From a virus, in IMG/VR virus record IMGVR_UViG_3300017992_000057, positions 1-32,248 of that record: DNA of 32,248 nt; one strand, 5' to 3'. Made by a program: the position numbers and the translations under genes. Positions 13,689 to 27,700 of this stretch are shown piece after piece. The notes below the pieces were generated by a model. The model was not told where the DNA came from and did no database searches. It worked only from the letters and a program-made list of their open reading frames with translations. Position 1 is the first letter of the stretch, and each line of letters opens with the position of its first letter.

Positions 13689-14123
13689 ATGGCGATAGAC
13701 GCTTTGCGCGAATTGACCGAGTACCGGGTGAAAGCCGAGGAGGACGGTTGGCTGCCGGAATTCGAGGCTATCATCAAGGTTCTCATCGCAGCGCAGGAAC
13801 GCGCGGAACAGCGCCTCGCAGTGCTGGGCGCCATCGGACGTCTTGTGGGTTGGGAAACCCCGACGCCCGAGCAACTGTCGCACCTGCCGCAAGCGGTGGC
13901 GTCCCTGAAGGCGCGTGCGGATCGCGCGGGGTCGCCTGGGACGGAATTCCTGCACGGTTGGGTCGCAGGCTACCTCGAAGCCATCGGCGCCGCAACGGGT
14001 GCCGAATTCTCTTCCGCGGAAGGAGCCGTACGGCACCTCGCCGGCCTGTACCGCGAGGCGCTGAAGTGTGAGAAACGAAACGCGGAGGCCAAGGGCGAGG
14101 AAGGCGCAACGGAAGACGCATGA
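13689..14123 (+). CDS. helical protein before terminase; candidate small terminase
   Basis: 144 residues from ATG 13689 (GGAAGGAG upstream). It is entirely helical (TEYRVKAEEDGWLPEFEAII, VLIAAQERAEQRLAVLG) with a highly charged C-terminus. Its stop overlaps the TerL start (ATGA at 14120). Position and size fit a small terminase subunit, which would recognise the packaging site. I see no clear helix-turn-helix, so the call rests on context. A copy of AAGTGTGAGAAAC (14064-14076) encodes part of KCEKR near its end. Confidence 0.6.
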   Translation: MAIDALRELTEYRVKAEEDGWLPEFEAIIKVLIAAQERAEQRLAVLGAIGRLVGWETPTPEQLSHLPQAVASLKARADRAGSPGTEFLHGWVAGYLEAIGAATGAEFSSAEGAVRHLAGLYREALKCEKRNAEAKGEEGATEDA

Positions 14124-15463
14124 ATTGGCTCGAACTCGTAAAACACGAGCGCATTTTGGAAGGGGGCAAGCCGTACGGCGACCTCGCTGAATCCTGGCAA
14201 CTTGAACTCGACCGCGCGCTGTTCAATGAACCGCGCGTCTACATCGAACTTCCCCGCGGGCACGACAAGACGGGGCGTCTTGCGGCGCACGCCTTGTGCT
14301 GGCTCCTCGAGGGCGAGGGGAAGTTGGGTTACGCTGCCGGCGTTGACAAGGACAATGCGCGGCTGTTTCGCACAGAAATCAAGGGGCAGGTGGACCGGAA
14401 CCCGCGGGCGTTCGGCGACATCGAGATTCAAAACTATGTCGTGCAGAACACGCGCAACGGGAACCGCATCGAAATCCTTTCCTCCGATGCGCCCTCAAGT
14501 ATCGGCCTGAAGTTCAACCTGCTGCTCATCAATGATTTCGTTGATTGGAAAAGCCGTGACTTTTTCGAGGTGCTCATGTCTGCTACGGGCAAACTGCCCG
14601 GCGTGCAGATATGGGTCGAATCAAACGCGGGCAGGACGAAAAACGATTACAAGTGGAACTTCCGCGAATACGCGCGCAAATCCTCCAGGTGGTTTTTCAA
14701 CACGAGCCTGAAGTGGCTGGCCGGCTGGACTGACGATGAATGGTTCGAGGAACAGAAGGCGATCCTTTCCCCGTCGCAATACAGGCGCCTCATCGGAAAC
14801 GAATGGATCGGGGACGAGGACGTGTTTCTCACTCCCGATCAGGTGCGCTCCATCACGAACCCGTACCTCAAACCGTGCCCGAACCGTCCGGAAGATGTCG
14901 ACCTCGTTGCGGTGGCGACCGACCTCGGAATTTCAAAAGCGGCCGCTGCCGTTGCGGCGGTGGGCCGCGTGAAAGGGTACGAACCTGCGCGGCTGCTCGA
15001 CCTGCGCGTGTTTCCGGGGTCCAAGATCGCGCCGGTACAGATCAGCGACGTGGAAGAGGCCATCGAGGACATGCGCGCGAATTACGAAGCGCACGGCGTG
15101 GTTTTGGACCCGTGGAACATGAGGAAAACGATTCAGGACCGCGAGGCCGTGTGGCCGATTGAAGAATTCAACTTCTCGCCGGCAAACATCATGCGCCTGA
15201 CTTCCGACGTGTTTCGTCGCGTGGTGAGCCGGCAGTTGGAAATATATCCCGACGCCGGGCCTGCAATTCAGAACCGCGAACAGTGGTCGCTTCAAAAGGA
15301 ATTGCAGACCGCGGTCATTCGTCAGATGTCCTACGGCGAACGAATTGACCATCGGGCTTCCGGATATACGGACCGCATAATAGCGGTCGGGATGGCGCTG
15401 TGGTGGCTGGGAAAGGAACGGCTGCCCAAGGCGCCGAGGACGTTCAAGGTTCGCGTCGTGTGA
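14120..15463 (+). CDS. terL: terminase large subunit
   Basis: 447 residues. The DNA packaging motor: an N-terminal ATPase and a C-terminal RNase H-like nuclease that cuts the genome. Walker A-like PRGHDKT is at residues 45-51 (P45, G47, K50, T51), a deviant loop like that of other terminases. Walker B is LLLIND at 134-139. Nuclease acidic residues are seen as TDLG (D268), VLDPW (D330) and YTDR (D418), each after a hydrophobic strand. Start ATG 14120 overlaps the upstream stop. The portal gene starts 7 bases after its stop. Confident family call; length is on the short side but complete. Confidence 0.92.
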   Translation: MNWLELVKHERILEGGKPYGDLAESWQLELDRALFNEPRVYIELPRGHDKTGRLAAHALCWLLEGEGKLGYAAGVDKDNARLFRTEIKGQVDRNPRAFGDIEIQNYVVQNTRNGNRIEILSSDAPSSIGLKFNLLLINDFVDWKSRDFFEVLMSATGKLPGVQIWVESNAGRTKNDYKWNFREYARKSSRWFFNTSLKWLAGWTDDEWFEEQKAILSPSQYRRLIGNEWIGDEDVFLTPDQVRSITNPYLKPCPNRPEDVDLVAVATDLGISKAAAAVAAVGRVKGYEPARLLDLRVFPGSKIAPVQISDVEEAIEDMRANYEAHGVVLDPWNMRKTIQDREAVWPIEEFNFSPANIMRLTSDVFRRVVSRQLEIYPDAGPAIQNREQWSLQKELQTAVIRQMSYGERIDHRASGYTDRIIAVGMALWWLGKERLPKAPRTFKVRVV

Positions 15464-15470
15464 GGTTACG

Positions 15471-17378
15471 ATGGCGGAAAGTGTGAGAAACGCCGCGCAT
15501 CCGTTCGCGGAGGCAGCGACGTCGATGATCAAAGATGCGGCCCGCGGCCGATGCGTTCTCATCGAAACCGCGCCGGGCGCACGCGGCCGGATGCCGTTGG
15601 ACAAGGCAAAGGCCGCGTCCAAGGAACAGGCCGGCGAAACCTGGGAAGACGCGATGGAACGCGGGCGTCGCGGTATCACAAAGTTTCAGGAGGAATCACA
15701 GGCGCTCGAGGACAAGCGCGCCGGGTATAGCGGCGGCGACGTAATCGAGCCGCCCTTGCCGTTGGCCGCACTCGTCGAAACGTTCGAGCAGTCCAACTCG
15801 CTGCGGCAGAACGTGGACGCGATGGGAACGAACATCGACGGCTTCGGGTTCACGATTGCCTTCTCCCTTGACCTGGACGACAAGGAGGCCATCGAATTCG
15901 TCACCGACCTGCTGGCCGAGGAAGGCAAGGGCGAACCGGCCGAGGAAGCGGTGGCGGAACGCATCAAGGAACTGCGCAAGGAGGCCGCGCGCGAACGACG
16001 GAAGGCGCGAAACTTCTTCAACTATTGCGCGGACCCAAGTTTCATCGAACACCGCAGAATGTCCCGCGAAGACCTCGAGGTGATGGGAAATTGGACATGG
16101 GAAGTGCTGCGGGACAAGGCGGGCAACCTCGCGCGGTTCGTGCTGCTGCCGTTCTACACGATGCGTCTGACGAAACTGGGCGACCCCGTGGAAGTGGAAG
16201 TCAAGCGCAAGGTGGACCCCATCACCTTCAAAACGTTCAAGGAATCCCGGCGCTTCCGGCGGTTCGTGCAGATCGTGGGACAGAAGAAGGTGTGGTTCAA
16301 GGAATACGGCGACCCGCGCGTCATGAGCCGCAAGACGGGAACCTACTACAAAACGCTCGAGGAACTGCAAGCGAAAGCAAAGGAGGATCCGGAAGACGGT
16401 GAAGCCTCCGAAGTGATGCACTACCGCATCCGTGCCCTGCGCGGCCCGTACGGGCTGCCGCGGTACGTGGGCAACCTGCTATCCGTTCGCGGTTCGAGGC
16501 TTTCGGAGGAGGTGAATTACTTTTACTTCCAGAACAAAGCCATCCCGCCGATGATCATTTTCGTCGAGAACGGAACGCTCGCCGAGGCGGCGGTGGACCG
16601 GCTGACGGATTTCATGCAAGAGGTGAAGGGCGATACTCAAAAGTTCTGGAAAATCGCGATCCTTGAGGGCGAGTCGCAGGAGGACGCGCGTAAGCGTGGC
16701 GTGTCATGGACCGGGCAACCGCGCTTCAAGGTGGAACGCCTCACGGCGGAACAGTTGAAGGACGCGCTTTTCCAAGAATACGACGAACGGAACCGCGACA
16801 AGGTGGGCGAGAGTTTTCGCCTGCCGCGGCTGCTGCGGGGAGACACGCGCGATTTCAACCGGGCCACCGCGGAGGTGGCGAAGGCGTTGGCCGAGGAGCA
16901 GGTGTTCCAGCCGGAACGCGACAGGTTCGACGCCATGATCAATCGGACCGTGATGCCCGACCTTGGGTTCAGGTTCGTCGAATTCCGAAGCCGTGCGCCG
17001 GTTACGCGCGACCCGCTTTCGCTGATGGAACTCGTGCGCGAACTCGTGAAGGTTGGCGTTCTGACTCCGGGTGAGGGGCGTGAATTGGCGGGCGATATTT
17101 TCAACCGCGATTTCCCGCGCCTTGACGAAGACTGGACGAAGAAGCCGCTGCGCGTTGTGCTGGGCGAGCAGAAGATCGCAGCGCAGAACGGGCAAACGCT
17201 CGAGCAGTCAAAGGTCGCGGAACTGCGCGGAACCCTGGGGCTGGGCGAACCTGGGACGCCCGTCGACGTTCCGAAAGTCGCCAAGCGTTTGCTCGAGGTG
17301 CGGGGTGTGCTCTCCGAACTCATCAAGGGCGGGCCTGCCGGACACGTGTACGGTGCCCTCCTTGATCGAAACGATTGA
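15471..17378 (+). CDS. portal protein (PBSX-like)
   Basis: 635 residues from ATG 15471. Portal proteins form the dodecameric ring through which DNA enters and leaves the head. The diagnostic segment GPYGLPRYVGNLLSVRGSRL, then YFYFQNKAIPPMIIFVENG, matches PBSX/HK97-type portals. QSNSLRQNVDAMGTNIDGFG near residue 105 is the usual N-terminal portal signature. It is longer than many portals because of a charged N-terminus and a helical C-terminus (crown/barrel region). A copy of AAGTGTGAGAAAC at 15479-15491 encodes ESVRNA right after the start. Its 3' end overlaps the next gene. Confidence 0.9.
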   Translation: MAESVRNAAHPFAEAATSMIKDAARGRCVLIETAPGARGRMPLDKAKAASKEQAGETWEDAMERGRRGITKFQEESQALEDKRAGYSGGDVIEPPLPLAALVETFEQSNSLRQNVDAMGTNIDGFGFTIAFSLDLDDKEAIEFVTDLLAEEGKGEPAEEAVAERIKELRKEAARERRKARNFFNYCADPSFIEHRRMSREDLEVMGNWTWEVLRDKAGNLARFVLLPFYTMRLTKLGDPVEVEVKRKVDPITFKTFKESRRFRRFVQIVGQKKVWFKEYGDPRVMSRKTGTYYKTLEELQAKAKEDPEDGEASEVMHYRIRALRGPYGLPRYVGNLLSVRGSRLSEEVNYFYFQNKAIPPMIIFVENGTLAEAAVDRLTDFMQEVKGDTQKFWKIAILEGESQEDARKRGVSWTGQPRFKVERLTAEQLKDALFQEYDERNRDKVGESFRLPRLLRGDTRDFNRATAEVAKALAEEQVFQPERDRFDAMINRTVMPDLGFRFVEFRSRAPVTRDPLSLMELVRELVKVGVLTPGEGRELAGDIFNRDFPRLDEDWTKKPLRVVLGEQKIAAQNGQTLEQSKVAELRGTLGLGEPGTPVDVPKVAKRLLEVRGVLSELIKGGPAGHVYGALLDRND

Positions 17379-19479
17379 CGCCGTCACCGCAGCGGCCTAT
17401 GACAACTTCGACCCGCTGCCCGCCTGGGCGGCGCTGGAGGAGTTTCTCACACTTCCAAGCCGTTCGACGGCCAAGGCGAAGAGTCGGTGGGATCTCACAA
17501 CGGAGGAGGGGTTCGCGCAGGCCGTCATCGAGGTCGCCCTTTCCATGCGGTCCGCAGAGGCGAAGGAACTGCGCGCCTTTGACGCTCGCTTTCGTCGCGC
17601 CCTGGATAAAAACTGGCCGGGCCTTTCCGCGGCTGAACGCCGCGAGGCGATGGCCGATGTGAGAAACCTGACGCGTACGCTGGGCGGAAAGATCACGGGC
17701 GCCGAGGCCGCGGTTCTCAAATCGTGGGAAGACCCGCTGCTGCAAGCGGGCAAGGTTTCCGCGATAGACCGTTACGGGCTGGGCGTGGCGCCAACGTTCA
17801 CGCGGGCGGATACGGTGGCCTCGGCTGGGCTGCGGCAGAACATGGTCCACTTCATCCGCGACCGCGAGGGGAGAATTGCCGAGGGGTTTTCGGAACAGGC
17901 GCGGGGCATCGTTGCGCGTGGGCTGGAGGATGGCCTGGGGCGCGATGACATTTCCCTTGCCCTGCGCGCAACGTTCGGCGATATGCGGAAGCCGAGTTAC
18001 TGGGACTTCTGCTCCAATCATTTCGTCGCACGGGAGCGCGCGGTTTCCGCGCTTACCTCATACCAGACGGCGAAGATTGTGAAGTACATGATCGTCGCCA
18101 TGCTGGACGAGAAAACAACGGACACGTGTCGGTTTCTCGACGGCAAGATCTTCGACGTGCAGCAGTCAATCGAAATGCTGGGCAAGGCGCAGGCGGAAAG
18201 CGCAGAGGATCCCAACCTCATCAAAGAGTTCAACCCCTTCATCAACACGTACCAAACCGAACGCGGTCCGGAACTGCGAATGATGCAGCCGGGAGGCGGA
18301 TCGGTGCGCGTGGCTTCGATTGAACGTTCGGGCGTTGGCCGCGTTGATGCGAAGGGCACGTACACGAACGCGATGAAGGATGGCGACTTGCAGAAGCAGG
18401 GCGTGGGGCCGCCGCCTTATCATCAGTTTTGCCGCACGAACATCGTCCCCGAAACCGAGGAGCGCGTTGAACCCGTGACGGTTGCGCCGCCGGTTACGGC
18501 GCCCATCGCTGCGCCGGCCAAGGTCCCGCGGCGTCCGAAGGATTTCGAGGGGTTGGCCGCGTTCGCTGAATCAATGGAGTTCCGGCCGGGCTGGATGGAC
18601 GCCGCGAGCAAGGTGAAAGGCGCCCCGCGTGGCGCCTTGCAGAAGGCGGCCGCGATGCAGGAAGGCTTCCGTGCGCGTGGCGAAAAAGTCATCGGCGACC
18701 TGACCGTGCGGTGGAAGGAACTGGCCGCGAGCGGAATGGAACCGGCGGCAAGACGTGCGGCCGAGCGCGAAGTGATGTCCGAGATGGCCTCGCGGTTTCA
18801 GGCTACCTCGCGGCGCGTCACAGGGCGCACCGCTGCGCAGCACGAGGGCTTCAGGGAAACGTTCCTTCGGCGAATGGATGACAAACTGTTCCAGGGGAAC
18901 CTTCTTGATTCCACAACGCGGCCCAGCGTTGCGGACCGAGCCGCGCTTGGGCGTATCTATAACGCATGGGGGCCGCTGGCCGACAAGGTGGAGGGACACC
19001 TTCAGCGCGTGGAAAAGATCGCAGCGCGCGCGCACTACAAACACGCGAACGGATATATCCGCTATTTCGGAACGAACGCGCTGACGCATGAATTCGGGCA
19101 CGGCGCAGAGACGCTCGCGTCAACGCGTAGCGGCGCAACGCTACCGGAGAAGGACGGGTTCTGGACGCGGTTTCGTGATTCGCGCAAGGCCAAGGGCGAG
19201 CGGATCCGTTCCCTTGGGCGAGACACGGGCGTCAACTATGACGCACACGAAAAGTATGTCCGCGACAAGTTCGAGGGGCTCGACCCCTATACGAGCAAGG
19301 TGTACTCGAAAAACGGAAATTCCGAGTTCGTTTCCATGCTGAGCGAACGTCTCCTTCAGGACCCGGCGGCGCTGGCCGCGGGTTACGATTGGGACCTTGC
19401 GAAGATCATCGACCTGCAACCTGATATCCTTTCATCGTTTTTCGGCTGGGCCGAATCTGCTGTCCTGGGGGCGTGGTGA
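17353..19479 (+). CDS. minor head protein (Mu F/SPP1 gp7-like) fused to a zincin-like metallopeptidase
   Basis: 708 residues from GTG 17353 (TTG 17362 is the alternative; neither has a clear ribosome site, and both overlap the portal gene). Residues about 180-365 match the head-morphogenesis family: SYQTAKIVKYM, then TTDTCRFLDGKIF near 255-267, and PPPYHQFCRTNIVP near 350. The C-terminal half is different: HEFGH at 579-583 within a helix, followed about 75 residues later by NSEFVSMLSERL. HExxH plus a downstream helix glutamate is the gluzincin pattern. So the virion-head domain carries a likely zinc protease. It could cut head proteins, peptidoglycan or host targets; which is unknown. Confidence 0.85.
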   Translation: MPSLIETIDAVTAAAYDNFDPLPAWAALEEFLTLPSRSTAKAKSRWDLTTEEGFAQAVIEVALSMRSAEAKELRAFDARFRRALDKNWPGLSAAERREAMADVRNLTRTLGGKITGAEAAVLKSWEDPLLQAGKVSAIDRYGLGVAPTFTRADTVASAGLRQNMVHFIRDREGRIAEGFSEQARGIVARGLEDGLGRDDISLALRATFGDMRKPSYWDFCSNHFVARERAVSALTSYQTAKIVKYMIVAMLDEKTTDTCRFLDGKIFDVQQSIEMLGKAQAESAEDPNLIKEFNPFINTYQTERGPELRMMQPGGGSVRVASIERSGVGRVDAKGTYTNAMKDGDLQKQGVGPPPYHQFCRTNIVPETEERVEPVTVAPPVTAPIAAPAKVPRRPKDFEGLAAFAESMEFRPGWMDAASKVKGAPRGALQKAAAMQEGFRARGEKVIGDLTVRWKELAASGMEPAARRAAEREVMSEMASRFQATSRRVTGRTAAQHEGFRETFLRRMDDKLFQGNLLDSTTRPSVADRAALGRIYNAWGPLADKVEGHLQRVEKIAARAHYKHANGYIRYFGTNALTHEFGHGAETLASTRSGATLPEKDGFWTRFRDSRKAKGERIRSLGRDTGVNYDAHEKYVRDKFEGLDPYTSKVYSKNGNSEFVSMLSERLLQDPAALAAGYDWDLAKIIDLQPDILSSFFGWAESAVLGAW

Positions 19480-19824: not shown

Positions 19825-22800
19825 ATGCCTGATCTCACAACGCAAGACCTCGAGACCCAGGGCGGCGCGAAACCGTTGTCGGTTGGCGTCGACCCGAAAC
19901 TGCCCAAGGACGGCATCGTGTTGACGCCGTCGTTCGCGGCCAAGGTCGCGCGGGGCGAAAAGACAATCGTCATCAAGACGCGCCCGTTCAAGATCGGCGG
20001 CCGGCCGCTGTTCCTCATCGCCGGCGACAAGGCGCTGGGGATTCTCACACTTTCAACGCCGCGGAAAATCACCCTCAAGGAGTTCGCAGCCCTCGAGACC
20101 GAACACGGCATCAGCGCCGCGCAGCGGAAGAAGTTTTGGGCCGGGAAGCGGGAGTTCTTCGCGTACAAGGTGGTCAAGGTTTCACTGTTCGCGAAGCCGT
20201 TGGAAATCGAACAGCCGGCCGGGCAGCAGATGCTCGTCCGGGACGTGAAACTGGCCGGCGACGTTGTGCTGCTGTTTGACATCGCGAAAGCGGAGGGCGC
20301 GGCGGTGGAGGAAATGCGCGCAGCCCTGCGCAACCTCGCGCCGGTGATGGACCGCTGGGCGAAGAGTACGCTGCGGTTTCTCACAAAACCGGCCGAACTC
20401 GTCAGCATGGTTCGGGGCGCGCCGGCCGTGGTGCGGCGGCTGTTGCGGCTCGTGGGCGGCGGTTCGCCAGCGGCAACGGGCGAGGGCACGGTTTCGGAGG
20501 GCATCAAGGCGGTGGTGCGCCTTGGACGGCGCGTTGTGGGCGCCCTGGAGGCCGCTGACGGCAAGATGGCGGCACAGCAGGTATCAGACGCCCTCGCTGA
20601 ACTGGAAAGCGTTGACGACGCGATTCCGCGGCTGACCGGGCTGGACGAGGAGGCGAAGGGGTTCGTGCAGGAATTCGGCATCCCGAACCCGGCAGCGCAT
20701 GGCCTCGAGAAGAAAAAGTATCCCGGCCTCAAGATGCCCTCCCCAGGGTTCAACGTTGCACGCCTCAAGGCCGGCGGTTCCTCCGGCCTGTTCTCCCGCA
20801 TCGCGCGGGCCGGCCGTGTGGGCGTGGAGCAGGTGCTCGTCAATGAACTGAACAAACCCGGCGACGAACCTTTCGCCTACGGAATCGTCACGCTGCAAGA
20901 GGGGCGCAGGTTCGACGGGATCGGCACGGTTCCGAAAGCCGTACTCGCCGGCGTCGACGAGTTCACGCGGCGCGAATTCCAGCGCGAGAAGGTCATCTGG
21001 TACCATCCCTTCACGCTAATCACCGCCTTCGACAAACCCATCCGCATGTCGGCGCCCGTGCCTGGGCGCCGTTACGCTTCCGACGTTGATGTGAGCGGCG
21101 GCAAGGTGGAACCCGCGACCAAGGACGAGAACCGGCCGCCGAGCCCGTTCGCTGTGACCGCTGACGGGTACGTTCGGGAGGTGGTGGAATTCGACAAACT
21201 CGCCGACGACGCCCGGCAGATTTTCGCCGTCGTGCTGCCGGCCGAGCGTGCGCCGTGGCGCATCATCGAACTGCGCGCGGATTCCGCTGACGCAGCGTAC
21301 GAGGAAGCCGGCGCGCACGTGGCGGAACGGCAGGCGCAGGCCGCCGCGTTGGCGCTGCGCGTGGGTCTTTCGCATGGCGGGGAGCCCGTGTTCGAGGTGG
21401 TGGGCCTCCTGAACGCGCTCGATCCGGTGCAGATGGCACAGCAGGCCATCGCCATCGCCACGTCGCCGGCCCTTGCCGAAATGGACGACGATGAACTGGC
21501 GCGCCTGCTGGAACTGCTCCGCGGGTTCCATGAGATCGCCTTCGCCGGTAAGGAGGCCACGACGTACGAGGGCGTTTCCCGCGAGGACGTGGTGAACGCC
21601 TACCTCTTTGTCGTGCGCGCGCTTCGCGATGGCGGCGCGGTGGTGGAACCCAAGGCGGAAATCGACAGCGAGGCGAAGGACCTGGACGCCGATGCGTTCA
21701 AGGCGTGCCGGCCTGGGCAGGGGAGGAAACCGCGGCGCAAGGCGCGCGGGGAGGGGATGGGCGTGGGCGGTGAGGCCCAGCAGGACGGCGGCGTTTCCGA
21801 GTGCGTTTGCACGGCGTGCGGCGTGCGCATCGAACACGAACGCGGCAAGCCGTGCGCCGACGTCGCGTGCCCTGAGTGTGGCGCGGCGATGGCGCCTGTG
21901 ACGGAGAAGGGCGTCGCCTGTCTGTGCCCGTGGTGCGGCTACGAGGGCGAGTCCGAGGAAGGGCGTTGTCCAGAGTGCGGCCGTTCCGTTTTGATCGAGG
22001 GCAAGGCCGCGTCCGAACAGGCGGGGAAACTTGCGCCGACGCATCCCTCGGGCGAACAGGGAGGCCGTCGGATTTGCCTTTACGAAGTGCTCGAAAAGGT
22101 CAAGCCGTTCCGGTGGCGGCAGGACGCCATCTCCATCGTTGGCGGCATCGCGAACCGTGGCTTCACGGACAACGATATCGACATTCTCATCAAGGGGCCG
22201 CTGGACGAGAACACGCGGCACGTTCTGAAGTTCCGCCTTGGCCGGATGCTGGGGCCGGAACTCTCGCAGCGGGTGCAGTTCCTCGACGACGAATACGGCG
22301 GCCCGTTCACGAATAACGTCAACCTCGGGCACCTGTGCTTCGAGACACTTCCCGAATTCGCCATCAAGGAAATGCGGGAAGAGTGTGAGAAACAAGATGA
22401 CCCGATGCAGGATATGCCGGCCAAGCCTGGGCCGCGCGAAGCGGTCGTGCAGTTGCACTTCCGCGGCCGTTCCGTCCATCTCGATTTCCGGATTTCCATG
22501 AACGGCCACCTCGTCGGCTGGACCATCGCCGTGCAGAAACCGGGCGCCATCAAGGAACCCGTGACCACGGTCGCGCAGGCGAGGAAGATCGCTGCGGGTT
22601 ACAAGGCCGACGAGGGCAACAGATACCTCAAGGGGTTCGTGGCGCCCGGCGGGCTGTTCGCAACGCCGAAGATGCGACAGCCGAAAGTGTGGCTCAACGT
22701 TTCCGACGAAACGTTCGAGCCGGGCAGCGTTGGCGCCACGCGAAACTTCCCGGCCGTGTGGCTCGAAATAGACCGGCCGAAGGTGGAATTCGGGCAGCAG

Positions 22801-25218
22801 TCCCCGCGGTTCCACGAATACTTCATCACGGATTCCAAACTGCGGGACGGCATCTGGTTTTTCCGGCAACTGGTCGGCGAGACGCCTCCCGGTACGGTTC
22901 GCGAGGAAGAGGAAGGAAAAGTGACGCCGGCCGGGGAAACGTTCTGGAAGTTCGCGGCCGCGAAGTCCATGTTGCCTTCCGTGCTGAAACCTCGCACCGC
23001 CGAACGCGGCACGATGCCGCCTGCCGGTTGGTCATGGATTCCGCAAAGCCTCGAGCGTGACGTGCCGCAGGAGTTCCGGTACTGGGAAAAGCGGAGCCAC
23101 GCGAAGCAAACGCGCGACGCGCTGGAGGAAGCGGACATTTTCACGGACTCGACCGTGCGCATTGTGGACGGCAAGTTCCGCCTCGTGCGGACGAAGATGT
23201 TCATCGCCGGCGAACAGGGCGAACCCGTGGAGGTCCATCGCGTGCGCTCGAAGGCGTGCGTTGCGAAGCGCGTTGTGGAGTACGCGCTTTCCCGGCAGTC
23301 ATTCCGCGGGCCTGTTCAGGTGCGCGAGGGGTTCTCCCGCGTCTTCTGGTGGCTGGCGTTCGACGAACCTGGGGCCGCAGGCGTTCGCGCCTGGAAACTG
23401 CTGACCGATCCTGCGTCGGGCGAGAAGCGGATTTCCGCGGTGAAGGCGCCTTCCGCGTTCACGCGCGACAAGGCGCTGCTGAGCCTCAAGGGCGATCAGG
23501 CGCCGGGTTCCCGTTTCAACGACACGAAAGATACGCCGAGCAGCGTGTACGCGGTGGGAACCGGCAAGGCCGATGTCGAAGAGGAGGCGGCGGGTTTCGT
23601 GCGGGTTCGTTTCACGAGCGGCCCGCTGAAGGGGACGCGCGTGCTGGCCGCCGAGGAACGTGGCTCGAACCTTTGGGAATTCTCACACGAGGACGAGGCG
23701 GTGCCGCCAAAGAGTGAGAAACTTGGCGCGGTTCCCACGCGAGGCGGCGTTCAAGTTTGGGACCCCGATAAAAAGAGCGCCGACGTGGACCGTTCGCAAC
23801 TGCGTCCGCTTGCGCTGTTCGCGCCCATGAAACCGCGCAAGGGATACTTCGATCCCGAGGAATTCCTGCGCGATTGGCCGACGCCCGAATACGTGAAAAG
23901 CGGGCTCGATGTGGAGCCCAAGTGGAACGGGTTGAGGGCCATTCTGGAATCCGACGGCGACAAGGTTCTCATCTACTTCGAGGATTCGCAGGATGACCGT
24001 TCGCACGTGCTGCCCGGCGTGGCGCGCGAATTGGCGGCCCTGGGAAAGAAGGTCGGCCCGTTTATTCTCGACGCAGAGTTGCTCGATTTTGACGGAGATG
24101 AGGCGCTGCCGCGGCGCACGCTTTCGCGGTTCACGGGGCCGGTTGATCCTCAAGAGGATTCGGGCGTGCGGTTCAAGGCGCACCGCCTCATCTACGGCAA
24201 CGGAAAGAACTGGACCGACGTGCCGCGCAAGGAGGCGCGCCCGGCACTGGAAGCGTTCGTCAAGAAGGCTGCGGCGAAGCACATCGAACTCACGCCGGCG
24301 CGAACCGCGCGAAGCGTGGAACAGTTGCCGGAACTCATCAAGTGGGCCGCGGGGTTTTCCGGTAGCGAAGGAGCGATGTTCAAACTGGGCGAATCGACCT
24401 ACTCGCTGGGCCGGTTTACGAGTTCGTGGTCGAAGTTGAAACTGCCGCGCACCGTGTACGCGCGCGTTTACGAAGTCATAAAGAAAAAGCCGTCGCCCCA
24501 GCAAAAGGCGCCGTCGCGAACGTTCGTCTATCAAGCGGCTGTCGGACCCGTGGACGAAAAAGACGTTGACAGGTACCGGGCCACCGTTAGAATCGGAAAT
24601 CGAAATTACGTACCTATCGGCAAAACGTTTGCGACGAACGTTCAAGCGAATGTCGGCGACGTTTTGCAGGTGGAGGTCACGGAGTTGCTCATAGACCTCG
24701 CAGGCGAAAAACAGACGGTGCACTGGTTCACGCCGGTCGTAGAGGCGCGCGTTCAACGCCGCCCGAATACCGTCCCCGAGGTGATTCGCCTTGCGTTCGA
24801 GCACGAAGTGAAACGTTCGGTCGAAAAGATCCTTTCCCGCGAAATTCCCATCTTCAAGGCTGCCGAGGAGCGCATCGTTTACGGCATCGTGCTCGAGCCG
24901 GAAACGAAAGACGCGCAGAATGACATTTACTCCGCGGAGGAAATCCGGCAGGCTGCACATCGGTACATGGAAGAATTCCGGCACCTGGGGCTCATGCACC
25001 GGTACCGGATGGACGGGCGAATTCGGATCCTCGAATCCTACATCGCACCTTGTGACATGGAGGTCGAGGGTCAGCCCGTGAAAGCGGGAACGTGGCTGAT
25101 GGTTGCGCGGGTGATTGACGATGGCCTGTGGGCCGCTGTAAAATCAGGAAAGTTGACCGGGTTCTCAATCGGCGGCAGCGCCATCAGGGAGAAGGAAAAG
25201 AAACCGGAGGCCGCGTAA
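19825..25218 (+). CDS. giant polyprotein: ASCH-like x2, Zn ribbons, nucleotidyltransferase, phosphoesterase-like, DNA ligase, XkdF prohead protease
   Basis: 1797 residues from ATG 19825 (GAGGAAG upstream). Domains in order: ASCH-like (31-125, with RGEKTI); a related copy (about 350-410, GIVTL...FDKPI); zinc ribbons (about 659-740, four to five CxxC knuckles). Pol-beta-type nucleotidyltransferase has GG 773-774 and D784/D786. The LigD 3'-phosphoesterase-like part has H878, H885, D887, R889 and GWTI. The ATP-dependent DNA ligase has EPKWNGLR with K1366, DAE at 1416-1418, SEGAMFK 1514-1520 and SWSKLK 1534-1539, then an OB-like domain. The C-terminal XkdF (S78-type) protease starts at 1683, with candidate His1725 and Ser1781 (GFSIGG). 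The frame has no internal stop. XkdF position fits head assembly; self-cleavage and packaging of the repair enzymes are inference. Confidence 0.88.
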   Translation: MPDLTTQDLETQGGAKPLSVGVDPKLPKDGIVLTPSFAAKVARGEKTIVIKTRPFKIGGRPLFLIAGDKALGILTLSTPRKITLKEFAALETEHGISAAQRKKFWAGKREFFAYKVVKVSLFAKPLEIEQPAGQQMLVRDVKLAGDVVLLFDIAKAEGAAVEEMRAALRNLAPVMDRWAKSTLRFLTKPAELVSMVRGAPAVVRRLLRLVGGGSPAATGEGTVSEGIKAVVRLGRRVVGALEAADGKMAAQQVSDALAELESVDDAIPRLTGLDEEAKGFVQEFGIPNPAAHGLEKKKYPGLKMPSPGFNVARLKAGGSSGLFSRIARAGRVGVEQVLVNELNKPGDEPFAYGIVTLQEGRRFDGIGTVPKAVLAGVDEFTRREFQREKVIWYHPFTLITAFDKPIRMSAPVPGRRYASDVDVSGGKVEPATKDENRPPSPFAVTADGYVREVVEFDKLADDARQIFAVVLPAERAPWRIIELRADSADAAYEEAGAHVAERQAQAAALALRVGLSHGGEPVFEVVGLLNALDPVQMAQQAIAIATSPALAEMDDDELARLLELLRGFHEIAFAGKEATTYEGVSREDVVNAYLFVVRALRDGGAVVEPKAEIDSEAKDLDADAFKACRPGQGRKPRRKARGEGMGVGGEAQQDGGVSECVCTACGVRIEHERGKPCADVACPECGAAMAPVTEKGVACLCPWCGYEGESEEGRCPECGRSVLIEGKAASEQAGKLAPTHPSGEQGGRRICLYEVLEKVKPFRWRQDAISIVGGIANRGFTDNDIDILIKGPLDENTRHVLKFRLGRMLGPELSQRVQFLDDEYGGPFTNNVNLGHLCFETLPEFAIKEMREECEKQDDPMQDMPAKPGPREAVVQLHFRGRSVHLDFRISMNGHLVGWTIAVQKPGAIKEPVTTVAQARKIAAGYKADEGNRYLKGFVAPGGLFATPKMRQPKVWLNVSDETFEPGSVGATRNFPAVWLEIDRPKVEFGQQSPRFHEYFITDSKLRDGIWFFRQLVGETPPGTVREEEEGKVTPAGETFWKFAAAKSMLPSVLKPRTAERGTMPPAGWSWIPQSLERDVPQEFRYWEKRSHAKQTRDALEEADIFTDSTVRIVDGKFRLVRTKMFIAGEQGEPVEVHRVRSKACVAKRVVEYALSRQSFRGPVQVREGFSRVFWWLAFDEPGAAGVRAWKLLTDPASGEKRISAVKAPSAFTRDKALLSLKGDQAPGSRFNDTKDTPSSVYAVGTGKADVEEEAAGFVRVRFTSGPLKGTRVLAAEERGSNLWEFSHEDEAVPPKSEKLGAVPTRGGVQVWDPDKKSADVDRSQLRPLALFAPMKPRKGYFDPEEFLRDWPTPEYVKSGLDVEPKWNGLRAILESDGDKVLIYFEDSQDDRSHVLPGVARELAALGKKVGPFILDAELLDFDGDEALPRRTLSRFTGPVDPQEDSGVRFKAHRLIYGNGKNWTDVPRKEARPALEAFVKKAAAKHIELTPARTARSVEQLPELIKWAAGFSGSEGAMFKLGESTYSLGRFTSSWSKLKLPRTVYARVYEVIKKKPSPQQKAPSRTFVYQAAVGPVDEKDVDRYRATVRIGNRNYVPIGKTFATNVQANVGDVLQVEVTELLIDLAGEKQTVHWFTPVVEARVQRRPNTVPEVIRLAFEHEVKRSVEKILSREIPIFKAAEERIVYGIVLEPETKDAQNDIYSAEEIRQAAHRYMEEFRHLGLMHRYRMDGRIRILESYIAPCDMEVEGQPVKAGTWLMVARVIDDGLWAAVKSGKLTGFSIGGSAIREKEKKPEAA

Positions 25219-25254: not shown

Positions 25255-26703
25255 ATGGCTGACGGAAAGAAGGAGCAGAAGTTCCGGTTGCGGGACATGA
25301 TCGTCGAGTCGGTGGATCTCGTCGACCGGCCCGCGAATCAAAAGCGGTTTCTGTTATTCAAGAGGGAGGAAGATATGGGAGCGAACGTACAGGGAGAAGG
25401 CCTCACGACCGCGCCGCCCGAGGACAGCGCGACCGTGCAGGTGCCGGAAGCGGACGTGGAATCCGGCGCAACCCCAACGGCCAAGGACGAAGGGGGCGCG
25501 CCCGCGGAACCGGACACCGCCGCCGGCGATCCCGGCAACGAAGGCTCCGATGCTTCCGCCACGGCAGGGGACAACGCGGACGATGCGGCCGGCGACGCGG
25601 GCGCGGAAACCGTGGGCAAGATGGCCGAAGCCCACGCGGCCCTTCTGAGCGAAAAGATGGAAGCCATCGGGAAACTGGCTTCCGACATCGCGCAGAACGC
25701 GCCCAGCATGGACCTCAAGGACCTGCGCGCGAAACTTTCCCAACTGGAAAGCATGGGCTGGAAGGTGGGCGAGGTCGCGGAGGTGGTGAACGTGATGAAA
25801 CGCGACGCCACCGAAAAGGCCGGCGAGATTCCCCAGGGTGTGAAGGACGCCGTCAAGAAGGTTCTGCGCGAGGCGGTGGAACGCCTGATGTCGGTGAACA
25901 ACGCGCTTCGCGTGGCCACCGTGACGCAGGACAAGATGTCGGCGCCCCTGCCGGACCCCGTGTACCGGGAGATGCGCTCGATCCTGACCATGGTCAAGGG
26001 CGTGCTCCAGAAGTACCCGGCGCCCAAGGCGGCCGGGGAAGCGGGGGAGGGCGAAGCGGAGGAAACCGACAAGGCCGCGGACGCCGCGCCCGAGGTCGAG
26101 GCCGTGGGGAACGAAACGGCGCTCGAACTGGCGAAGCAGACGGCGGCGCTCACCCTGCCCGCGCCGGTGCGCGACGCGGTGGCGGAACGGGTGCGCGAGG
26201 CGACCGAGGTGCTCATGAGCGCGATGGGCGCGGTGGAAAAGGCACCGGTGACGGAGGCGCAGACGGCATCGCCCATGCCGGCCGAGATCGCCGACGCCAT
26301 CGGCAAGGCCGCGGCGGCGATGGAGGAAACCCTCCAGAAGTACCCGGCGCCCAGCGCGAAATCCGAGGGGATCCTGGCCGCGCTGCACGAGCACTTCAAC
26401 GCCATCGAGAACATCGTGAAGCAGGTCGTGGGAGACGAGCCCGTGGTGGTGAAAGCCGAACCGCCCGCGCAGGACAACGCGAACGCGGAACTCCTCAAGC
26501 GGCTGGACGGCATCGCCGAATCCGTGAAGAAAAACGCCGACGCCATCGCCCAGGTGATCGGCACGCCGAAGCCCTCGAACGCGCTCGAGGACGCCGGCGG
26601 AACCGGCGAGACCGAACCCGGCAAGGTGCAGAAAAACGCCGGCGTGGAGTGGGGCAACGACCTCGCGGCCGAGATCGAACCCGAACCCGCGGACGCGGAG
26701 TAG
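25255..26703 (+). CDS. scaffold-like head protein with XkdF-type leader
   Basis: 482 residues from ATG 25255. It starts with RLRDMIVESVDLVDRPANQK then RFLLFK, the 'VDRPAN..FLL.K' segment that normally belongs to XkdF-type proteins. Here it stands in a separate gene. The remainder is acidic, Ala-rich and helical, as expected of a scaffold that fills the prohead and is later cut away. An internal duplication is clear: VKDAVKKVLREAVERLMS...LQKYPAPKA is echoed by VRDAVAERVREATEVLMS...LQKYPAPSA. It lies between the protease and the capsid gene, the usual scaffold position. Substrate of the upstream protease by inference. Confidence 0.8.
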   Translation: MADGKKEQKFRLRDMIVESVDLVDRPANQKRFLLFKREEDMGANVQGEGLTTAPPEDSATVQVPEADVESGATPTAKDEGGAPAEPDTAAGDPGNEGSDASATAGDNADDAAGDAGAETVGKMAEAHAALLSEKMEAIGKLASDIAQNAPSMDLKDLRAKLSQLESMGWKVGEVAEVVNVMKRDATEKAGEIPQGVKDAVKKVLREAVERLMSVNNALRVATVTQDKMSAPLPDPVYREMRSILTMVKGVLQKYPAPKAAGEAGEGEAEETDKAADAAPEVEAVGNETALELAKQTAALTLPAPVRDAVAERVREATEVLMSAMGAVEKAPVTEAQTASPMPAEIADAIGKAAAAMEETLQKYPAPSAKSEGILAALHEHFNAIENIVKQVVGDEPVVVKAEPPAQDNANAELLKRLDGIAESVKKNADAIAQVIGTPKPSNALEDAGGTGETEPGKVQKNAGVEWGNDLAAEIEPEPADAE

Positions 26704-26761: not shown

Positions 26762-27700
26762 ATGGGAGTTTCCAACCGTTCCATCCTGGCGAAGGCCGAT
26801 CTCAAGATCAACGACCTTCTGACCGACGGCGGCATCCTCCCCGAAGCGGCCGCGAAGCGGTTCCTTCAGGTGGCCGTGAAGAACGCCGTCATCCTGCCCG
26901 TGGCGACGGTGGTTCCGATGAAGAGCCGCGAACAGCGCATCGACCTGTTCCGGTTCCAGAACCGGATCCTCCGGCCGGGGCAGGAGGCCACCGCGCTGCC
27001 GGAGGCCGACCGTTCCAAGCCGAACCTCTACAAGGCGACGCTCAGCGTCAAATTGTTCAAGGGGGAAATTCGGCTGAACAAGGAAGTGCTCGAGGACAAC
27101 ATCGAGAGCGAGAACTTCCAGGACTCCATCATGGACGCCGCCGGCAAGGCCGTGGCGCGGGACATCGACGAACTCGTGGCCAACGGGGACACCGCGAGCG
27201 CCGACCCGTTTCTGGCGCAACTGGACGGCATCCGGAAGCAGGCCACGTCCAACCTCGTGAACGCCGCCGGCAGCACCACGACCAAGACGATCCTCAAGGC
27301 GAGCGTGAAGGCCATGCCCACGGAGCACCTGCGGGATCGCCGGGCCATGCGGTTCCTCACCTCGTTCGACAGCGAAACCGACTATCGGGATTCGCTGGCC
27401 GACCGGGCGACGGCCGTGGGCGACCGGTTCCTGCTGGAGGGCGTGCCCGCCACGTACTCCGGCATCCCGATGCTGGGCGTGCCGGTGTTCCCCGAAAACC
27501 TGGGGCCGTTCACGAACTACACCGAGATGCTCCTGCTCGATCCCAAGAACATCAACGTCGGCTTCTGGCGACAGATCGAGTGGGAAACCGACAAGGACAT
27601 CGTGGCCGGCGAACTGATCATCGTGGTCTCGCTGCGCATGGACGTCAAGTTCGCGTTCGAGCCCGCGGTGGTCAAGGTGCAGAACCTCAAGGTCGGCTAA
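26762..27700 (+). CDS. major capsid protein (HK97 fold)
   Basis: 312 residues from ATG 26762 (AAGGAGTGAG upstream). The sequence reads as an HK97-fold capsid subunit: an N-terminal arm, then VAVKNAVILPVATVVPMKSR, the E-loop region (RFQNRILRPGQEATALPEAD), a spine helix (DSIMDAAGKAVARDIDELVA) and a C-terminal strand block (FWRQIEWETDKDIVAGELII). Codons are almost wholly G/C-ending, consistent with high expression. There is no obvious long pro-segment, in line with a separate scaffold gene just upstream. A 12-G tract and a terminator-like hairpin follow. Confidence 0.88.
   Translation: MGVSNRSILAKADLKINDLLTDGGILPEAAAKRFLQVAVKNAVILPVATVVPMKSREQRIDLFRFQNRILRPGQEATALPEADRSKPNLYKATLSVKLFKGEIRLNKEVLEDNIESENFQDSIMDAAGKAVARDIDELVANGDTASADPFLAQLDGIRKQATSNLVNAAGSTTTKTILKASVKAMPTEHLRDRRAMRFLTSFDSETDYRDSLADRATAVGDRFLLEGVPATYSGIPMLGVPVFPENLGPFTNYTEMLLLDPKNINVGFWRQIEWETDKDIVAGELIIVVSLRMDVKFAFEPAVVKVQNLKVG

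Follow-up and report, generated by a model that had tools for sequence, protein, structure and literature searches.

A LigD-like phosphoesterase and DNA ligase cassette fused to an XkdF-type prohead protease: a putative DNA-end-healing polyvalent protein of uncultured tailed viruses

Phages and conjugative elements encode polyvalent proteins, large multidomain proteins whose genes lie among those of the virion; assemblin-like peptidases in them are always C-terminal, and the proteins are predicted to be delivered together with the phage DNA (PMC5512222, Iyer et al. 2017). A search of the text of that paper for a DNA ligase or a LigD domain found none. In the LigD proteins of bacterial and archaeal non-homologous end joining (NHEJ), a phosphoesterase (PE) fold with a His-His-Asp metal site is found together with an ATP-dependent ligase, and in Pseudomonas aeruginosa LigD both His84 and Tyr88 are required (PMC8656161). 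The mycobacteriophages Omega and Corndog use a phage Ku together with the host LigD, according to the accounts of Pitcher et al. (2006) given in PMC7719229 and PMC4351075.

We here analyzed a stretch of viral DNA of 32,248 nucleotides with 65% G+C (the window; positions 1 to 32,248 of IMG/VR virus record IMGVR_UViG_3300017992_000057), encoding a polyprotein that combines features of these systems. Like the polyvalent proteins (PMC5512222), it carries several disparate enzyme domains in one large polypeptide encoded among virion genes, with an assemblin-type protease at the C terminus, and its relatives include 2H, pol-beta nucleotidyltransferase and DNA methyltransferase companion domains; it differs from them in its core, which is a pair of LigD-type phosphoesterase domains together with an ATP-dependent DNA ligase. 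With LigD it shares the PE fold and metal site and a ligase of the same superfamily, but it has no primase-type POL domain, no Ku and no counterparts of His84 and Tyr88, and its PE domains form a pair of one active-type and one degenerate copy, fused to a prohead protease. Membership in a Ku–LigD NHEJ system was rejected, as Ku was found in 0 of 24 viral records, many of them incomplete; the search covered viral records, and a Ku of the host is possible. Omega and Corndog, as described in the papers citing that work, likewise apply NHEJ-type chemistry to their own genome ends, but they bring Ku and borrow the LigD of the host, whereas the viruses studied here bring a LigD-like set and no Ku. 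The cassette is most readily understood as a polyvalent protein of a new type, with a LigD-like core, and, if active, would be expected to work like a LigD-type end-healing ligase. The open-access literature that we searched, with limited coverage, contained nothing on an XkdF–ligase fusion or on the ligase of the ANMV-1 virus discussed below.

The polyprotein is encoded by a single uninterrupted frame of 1797 codons (19825–25218; plus strand, as for all features of the window given here), in agreement with an earlier sequence-only reading that had proposed one unbroken polyprotein of 1797 residues. A Shine-Dalgarno-like GAGGA is located a few bases 5' of the ATG at 19825, and the GC contents by codon position (0.67/0.46/0.78) have the pattern of a coding sequence. 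An artefactual or chimeric frame could be ruled out, because the same architecture is present in the relative L003, with 57–60% identity over the nucleotidyltransferase and both PE domains, and because further relatives come from many independent contigs. Upstream in the head module lie the genes for the large terminase subunit (14120–15463; PHROG_9, E=2e-21), the portal protein (15471–17378; Phage_portal, E=6e-13) and a Mu-F-like minor head protein with an uncertain start (17371–19479; PHROG_115, E=8e-12), followed by an ORF of 114 residues. Downstream of the polyprotein are an Ala/Glu-rich probable scaffold (25255–26703), its role suggested by composition and by its position between the protease and the major capsid protein (MCP), and then the MCP itself (26762–27700; Phage_capsid, PHROG_1623 at E=4e-86, and tblastn matches to annotated MCPs). 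The residues K1366, H878, H885, D887, R889, H1725, S1781, D784 and D786 were checked in the polyprotein.

The sequence-only reading had listed ASCH-like domains, zinc ribbons, a nucleotidyltransferase, a phosphoesterase-like motif, ligase motifs and a C-terminal XkdF-like protease, and had proposed profile searches and structure prediction; with Pfam, AlphaFold and Foldseek, these now support the ASCH, PE and ligase assignments. The N-terminal 640 residues consist of two ASCH-like barrels and a helical module. Barrel 1 (residues 24–145, 19894–20259) was modeled by AlphaFold with a pLDDT of about 90 and matched ASCH structures in Foldseek, and barrel 2 (residues 297–425, 20713–21099), with a pLDDT above 90, is similar to it in sequence; the Foldseek match of these folds to 2DP9/ZmASCH had an E of about 1e-5. 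The third module (about residues 545–634, 21457–21726) is helical in the model and recurs beside the enzyme domains in relatives, with profile matches in most of them. Zinc ribbons are putatively assigned at residues 658–725 (21796–21999) from CxxC pairs and weak Zn_Ribbon_1/DZR matches. A pol-beta-type nucleotidyltransferase (NT) domain at residues 736–845 (22030–22359) is likewise a tentative call from its GG...DIDI motif, of which the G and the DxD are invariant across 31 members, and from weak NTP_transf_2 and DNA_pol_B_palm matches. For these last two domains the motifs reported earlier are present, and the profile matches are weak.

The phosphoesterase assignment was considerably strengthened by its family. 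The window protein alone matched LigD_N below the cut-off (E=0.055–0.2), and the profile of 37 PE family members matched the PDB four times, all four being LigD PE structures (best 3P43, E=1e-3). AlphaFold modeled residues 736–1292 with a mean pLDDT of 81, and the top seven Foldseek matches of this model were all LigD PE structures (best E=1e-5). The first domain, PE1 (22375–22884), has H878, H885, D887 and R889, and retains the equivalents of the LigD residues His42 (36/37 members), His48 (37/37), Asp50 (37/37) and Arg52 (36/37). The equivalents of His84 and Tyr88 are not conserved in the profile alignment, where Glu or Gln and Trp are found in their place; a conserved, family-specific HEY motif may, speculatively, stand in for them. 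A second domain overlooked in the sequence-only reading, PE2 (residues 1037–1288, 22933–23688), extends its domain list; PE2 is LigD-PE-like, its family profile matching 3P43 at E=7.6e-7, and is degenerate, having no metal-binding triad.

The ATP-dependent DNA ligase core (23872–24480) was identified by Pfam DNA_ligase_A_M (PF01068) at residues 1361–1539 (E=1.4e-13; 51.5 bits against a cut-off of 26.2), by a family profile that matched PDB DNA ligases at E down to 2.8e-28, with RNA ligases among 0 of 43 matches, and by motifs. Of motifs I, III, IV and V, which had been described as complete, the Lys, Glu, EG..K and KxK were found to be conserved in the family; motif I of the window, however, is KWNG with the lysine at residue 1366 (23920–23931) and not KxDG, and the motif-IIIa Asp, present in 27 of 30 ligases, is absent from it. 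All ten ligases of the clade to which the window belongs have KxNG, and KxDG is seen with the other domain orders. An OB-like region follows the core (24520–24771), conserved in relatives and named from its position; no clear match to motif VI (RxDK) was found in the OB region of the window, where RVQR at 1642 may correspond to it. Of 30 aligned ligases, 29 have the adenylation lysine, and in the thirtieth it lies upstream of an intein: in L034:6641-11848 a LAGLIDADG intein interrupts the ligase directly after motif I (KYDG). Insertion at an active site is typical of inteins. In three further relatives (L046:7392-11323, L013:4622-8602 and L014:1897-6069) a break between motifs IIIa and IV divides the ligase into two ORFs, possibly giving a natural two-chain ligase; the two reading frames of L046 share four bases, and the first of its ORFs also has a D12 methyltransferase.

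Loss of ligase motifs in relatives, which the sequence-only reading had regarded as counting against its proposal, was found in part. L051:7457-12046 lacks ligase motifs I–IV and keeps motif V, the OB-like region and the protease domain, and L023 has methyltransferase-like segments and no ligase; most relatives keep the modules. The segment replacing the ligase in L051 resembles, by eye, the C-terminal part of the methyltransferase-like region of L023.

The C-terminal domain (24859–25185, with H1725 and S1781) is the XkdF-like prohead protease named earlier, Pfam Peptidase_S78_2 (S78) matching at residues 1679–1787 with E=1e-29 and 103.5 bits against a cut-off of 24; its His and Ser are invariant in 36 members. 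Among 40 non-redundant loci, S78 is fused in 25, and a further 9 encode it in the gene that follows; in the remaining 6, of which L017 and L033 are cut by the end of a contig, it was not seen. As the protease is a separate next gene in 9 of 40 loci, the fusion is not obligatory. Also the placement of the ligase in the head module rather than in the replication block, as previously remarked, was upheld: scaffold and/or MCP genes lie directly downstream of the S78 end in each of the 25 non-redundant loci with a fusion, the window among them. Where enough flanking sequence was available, a portal or Mu-F match was found upstream in 15 of 25 loci and a scaffold or MCP match downstream in 22 of 33; in the other loci, head genes may have diverged too far to be matched by profiles derived from the window. 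The PF01068 search of 24 viral records found the cassette ligase as the sole such ligase in each of 21 records, counting the two pieces in L046 as one split ligase and with G023 having one scored match, and it is therefore no spare copy of a replication-block ligase. A misplaced replication gene was consequently ruled out by the conserved head synteny and the lack of a second ATP ligase.

Used alone as a query against IMG/VR, the window protein found nothing, and relatives were reached through an alignment with the ANMV-1 virus. Of 50,697 GenBank phage records, only that of this virus, which comes from uncultured archaea of a methane seep, had homologous NT, PE and ligase domains. Its protein AJP62006 (KP703175), annotated as an ATP-dependent DNA ligase, has homologous NT, ligase, OB, PE1 and PE2 domains and adjoins a portal gene; it differs in its order, NT-Lig-OB-PE1-PE2, and in that no XkdF protease was found in record KP703175. 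The neighboring AJP62005 (L001:1913-3193), annotated as a 'MutT-like phage hydrolase', matches Phage_portal_3 at E=3e-22. Seeding with the window and ANMV-1 gave 18 and then 45 IMG/VR loci, in overlapping sets, together with four MAG contigs, assigned to Planctomycetota, Archaeoglobales, Thermoprotei and Candidatus Hatepunaea (Electryoneota); the Thermoprotei contig looks viral because of a capsid gene downstream. After removal of near-duplicates, 40 PE1-bearing loci remained, window included.

These relatives have three domain orders: NT-PE1-PE2-Lig-OB-S78 in the clade of the window, NT-Lig-OB-PE1-PE2-(S78), and Lig-OB-NT-PE1-PE2 with S78 in a gene of its own just downstream. In a PE tree, for which no root was inferred, members with the first order and those with the third are each confined to a single supported clade, with the second order spread over the rest. 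The enzyme modules are under purifying selection, with close pairs giving dN/dS of roughly 0.01–0.13 in the enzyme domains and the more distant pair L038/L040 reaching 0.19, as determined by a counting method with some dS values near saturation. Further enzyme domains occur in several relatives: 2H phosphoesterases in L010, L015 and L021, D12 adenine methyltransferases in L010, L037, L046, L062 and L063, and a PNK 3'-phosphatase (PNK3P) in L015 (24.0 bits against a cut-off of 22), where it is found with the 2H domain, NT, ligase and PE1/PE2 in one polypeptide (L015:6392-11290). L026 has a weak RNA_ligase match.

The combination of modules suggests cleaning of 3' ends and sealing of DNA, a theme strengthened by the relatives that add the PNK 3'-phosphatase or 2H phosphoesterases. 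We consider it probable that the polyprotein is a late, head-module polyvalent protein, in which an end-healing and sealing kit is built onto the prohead maturation protease, and that it mends the genome at or soon after entry. The S78 domain would join the prohead together with the scaffold, thereby bringing its N-terminal cargo inside, and would then cleave the scaffold and the linkers; the enzyme domains would remain in the head beside the DNA and, as the phage genome enters or shortly afterwards, would clean its 3' ends and seal its nicks, gaps or ends. We infer the packaging, cleavage, delivery and substrate of the enzymes, delivery in particular from the protease fusion, the gene position and the published description of polyvalent proteins; a protease that carries enzymes into the prohead and then frees them is plausible and agrees with the role proposed for the C-terminal assemblin-like peptidases of polyvalent proteins (PMC5512222). 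In favor of this delivered repair kit are the domain assignments, the adenylation lysine, the PE ligands, the low dN/dS, the S78 fusion or adjacency and the retention of modules through three orders, as well as the sole ATP ligase in 21 records and the PNK3P, 2H and D12 methyltransferase domains of relatives. Against it are the separate protease in 9 of 40 loci, the lack of one seen in ANMV-1, the loss of ligase in L051 and L023, and, in the window, the KxNG motif, the missing motif-IIIa Asp, the lack of a clear RxDK and a PE1 having no equivalents of His84 and Tyr88.

The same position in the head module and the same protease fusion would fit equally well with enzymes acting late in the producing cell, where nicks and gaps of the DNA to be packaged would be mended at the proheads and the cargo then lost or degraded instead of delivered. 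A precedent is found in Corndog, of which enzymes encoded between portal and protease were not detected in purified virions (PMC4351075), which is also a caution against delivery. A cytosolic ligase, however, would need no tie to a protease, and 2H, ASCH and D12 methyltransferase companions are typical of delivered polyvalent proteins (PMC5512222), so that we regard this alternative as unlikely. Still less probable, in our view, is a delivered polyvalent effector acting mainly on RNA or host defence, for example in mending of cleaved tRNA or removal of nucleotide signals, and not on the phage genome. The co-occurring ASCH and 2H domains, the weak RNA_ligase match in L026 and the KxNG variant of motif I would agree with such a role, but none of the 43 PDB matches of the ligase profile is an RNA ligase, and DNA ligases are matched at E down to 3e-28, which disfavors an RNA ligase; the LigD-type PE and PNK3P suggest 3' ends of DNA as targets. 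That the enzyme domains have decayed and only provide the protease with structural filler or a spacer could be argued from the degenerate PE2, the truncated ligase of L051 and the KxNG and weak motif VI of the window clade; with the adenylation Lys, EG..K, KxK, DxD and PE triad near-invariant over very divergent members, and with low dN/dS across the enzyme domains, we find this highly improbable.

The occurrence of relatives with shuffled orders in dozens of uncultured viruses suggests, without proving it, that these phages bring along a kit to repair their own genomes. A more far-reaching proposal, which we put forward only tentatively and would not presently favor, is that a widespread group of uncultured tailed viruses of bacteria and archaea packages a Ku-independent, LigD-like end-healing and ligation machine on the prohead protease, with the incoming genome mended or circularized before viral gene expression. 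If true, these viruses would have enzymes for DNA-end repair among their virion cargo, with maturation by the capsid protease, and could mend or close their genomes without relying on the host. LigD-type chemistry would then be added to the phage polyvalent proteins, loading of cargo via prohead proteases would become directly testable, and compact fusions of end-healing with ligase domains would be available from nature.

Fusions of other enzymes to XkdF proteases in cultured phages were considered as precedents and rejected. The protein of Lactococcus phage 28201 (L069) is a protease without a methyltransferase domain, and the 'methyltransferase' proteins of phiMK (L067) and Rhizobium RHph_Y1_11 (L072) are too short for a methyltransferase–XkdF fusion; with a protease-only match in the first and too little length in the others to hold both domains, the 'DNA methyltransferase' names or profiles of these three XkdF proteases look like carried-over annotation. 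As to the gene following the protease in the window, the probable scaffold (N terminus SVDLVDRPANQKRF) weakly matches at its N terminus that of the XkdF-protease family PHROG_3017 (E=0.02), a likeness that may be a trace of a protease–scaffold gene split in the lineage of the window.
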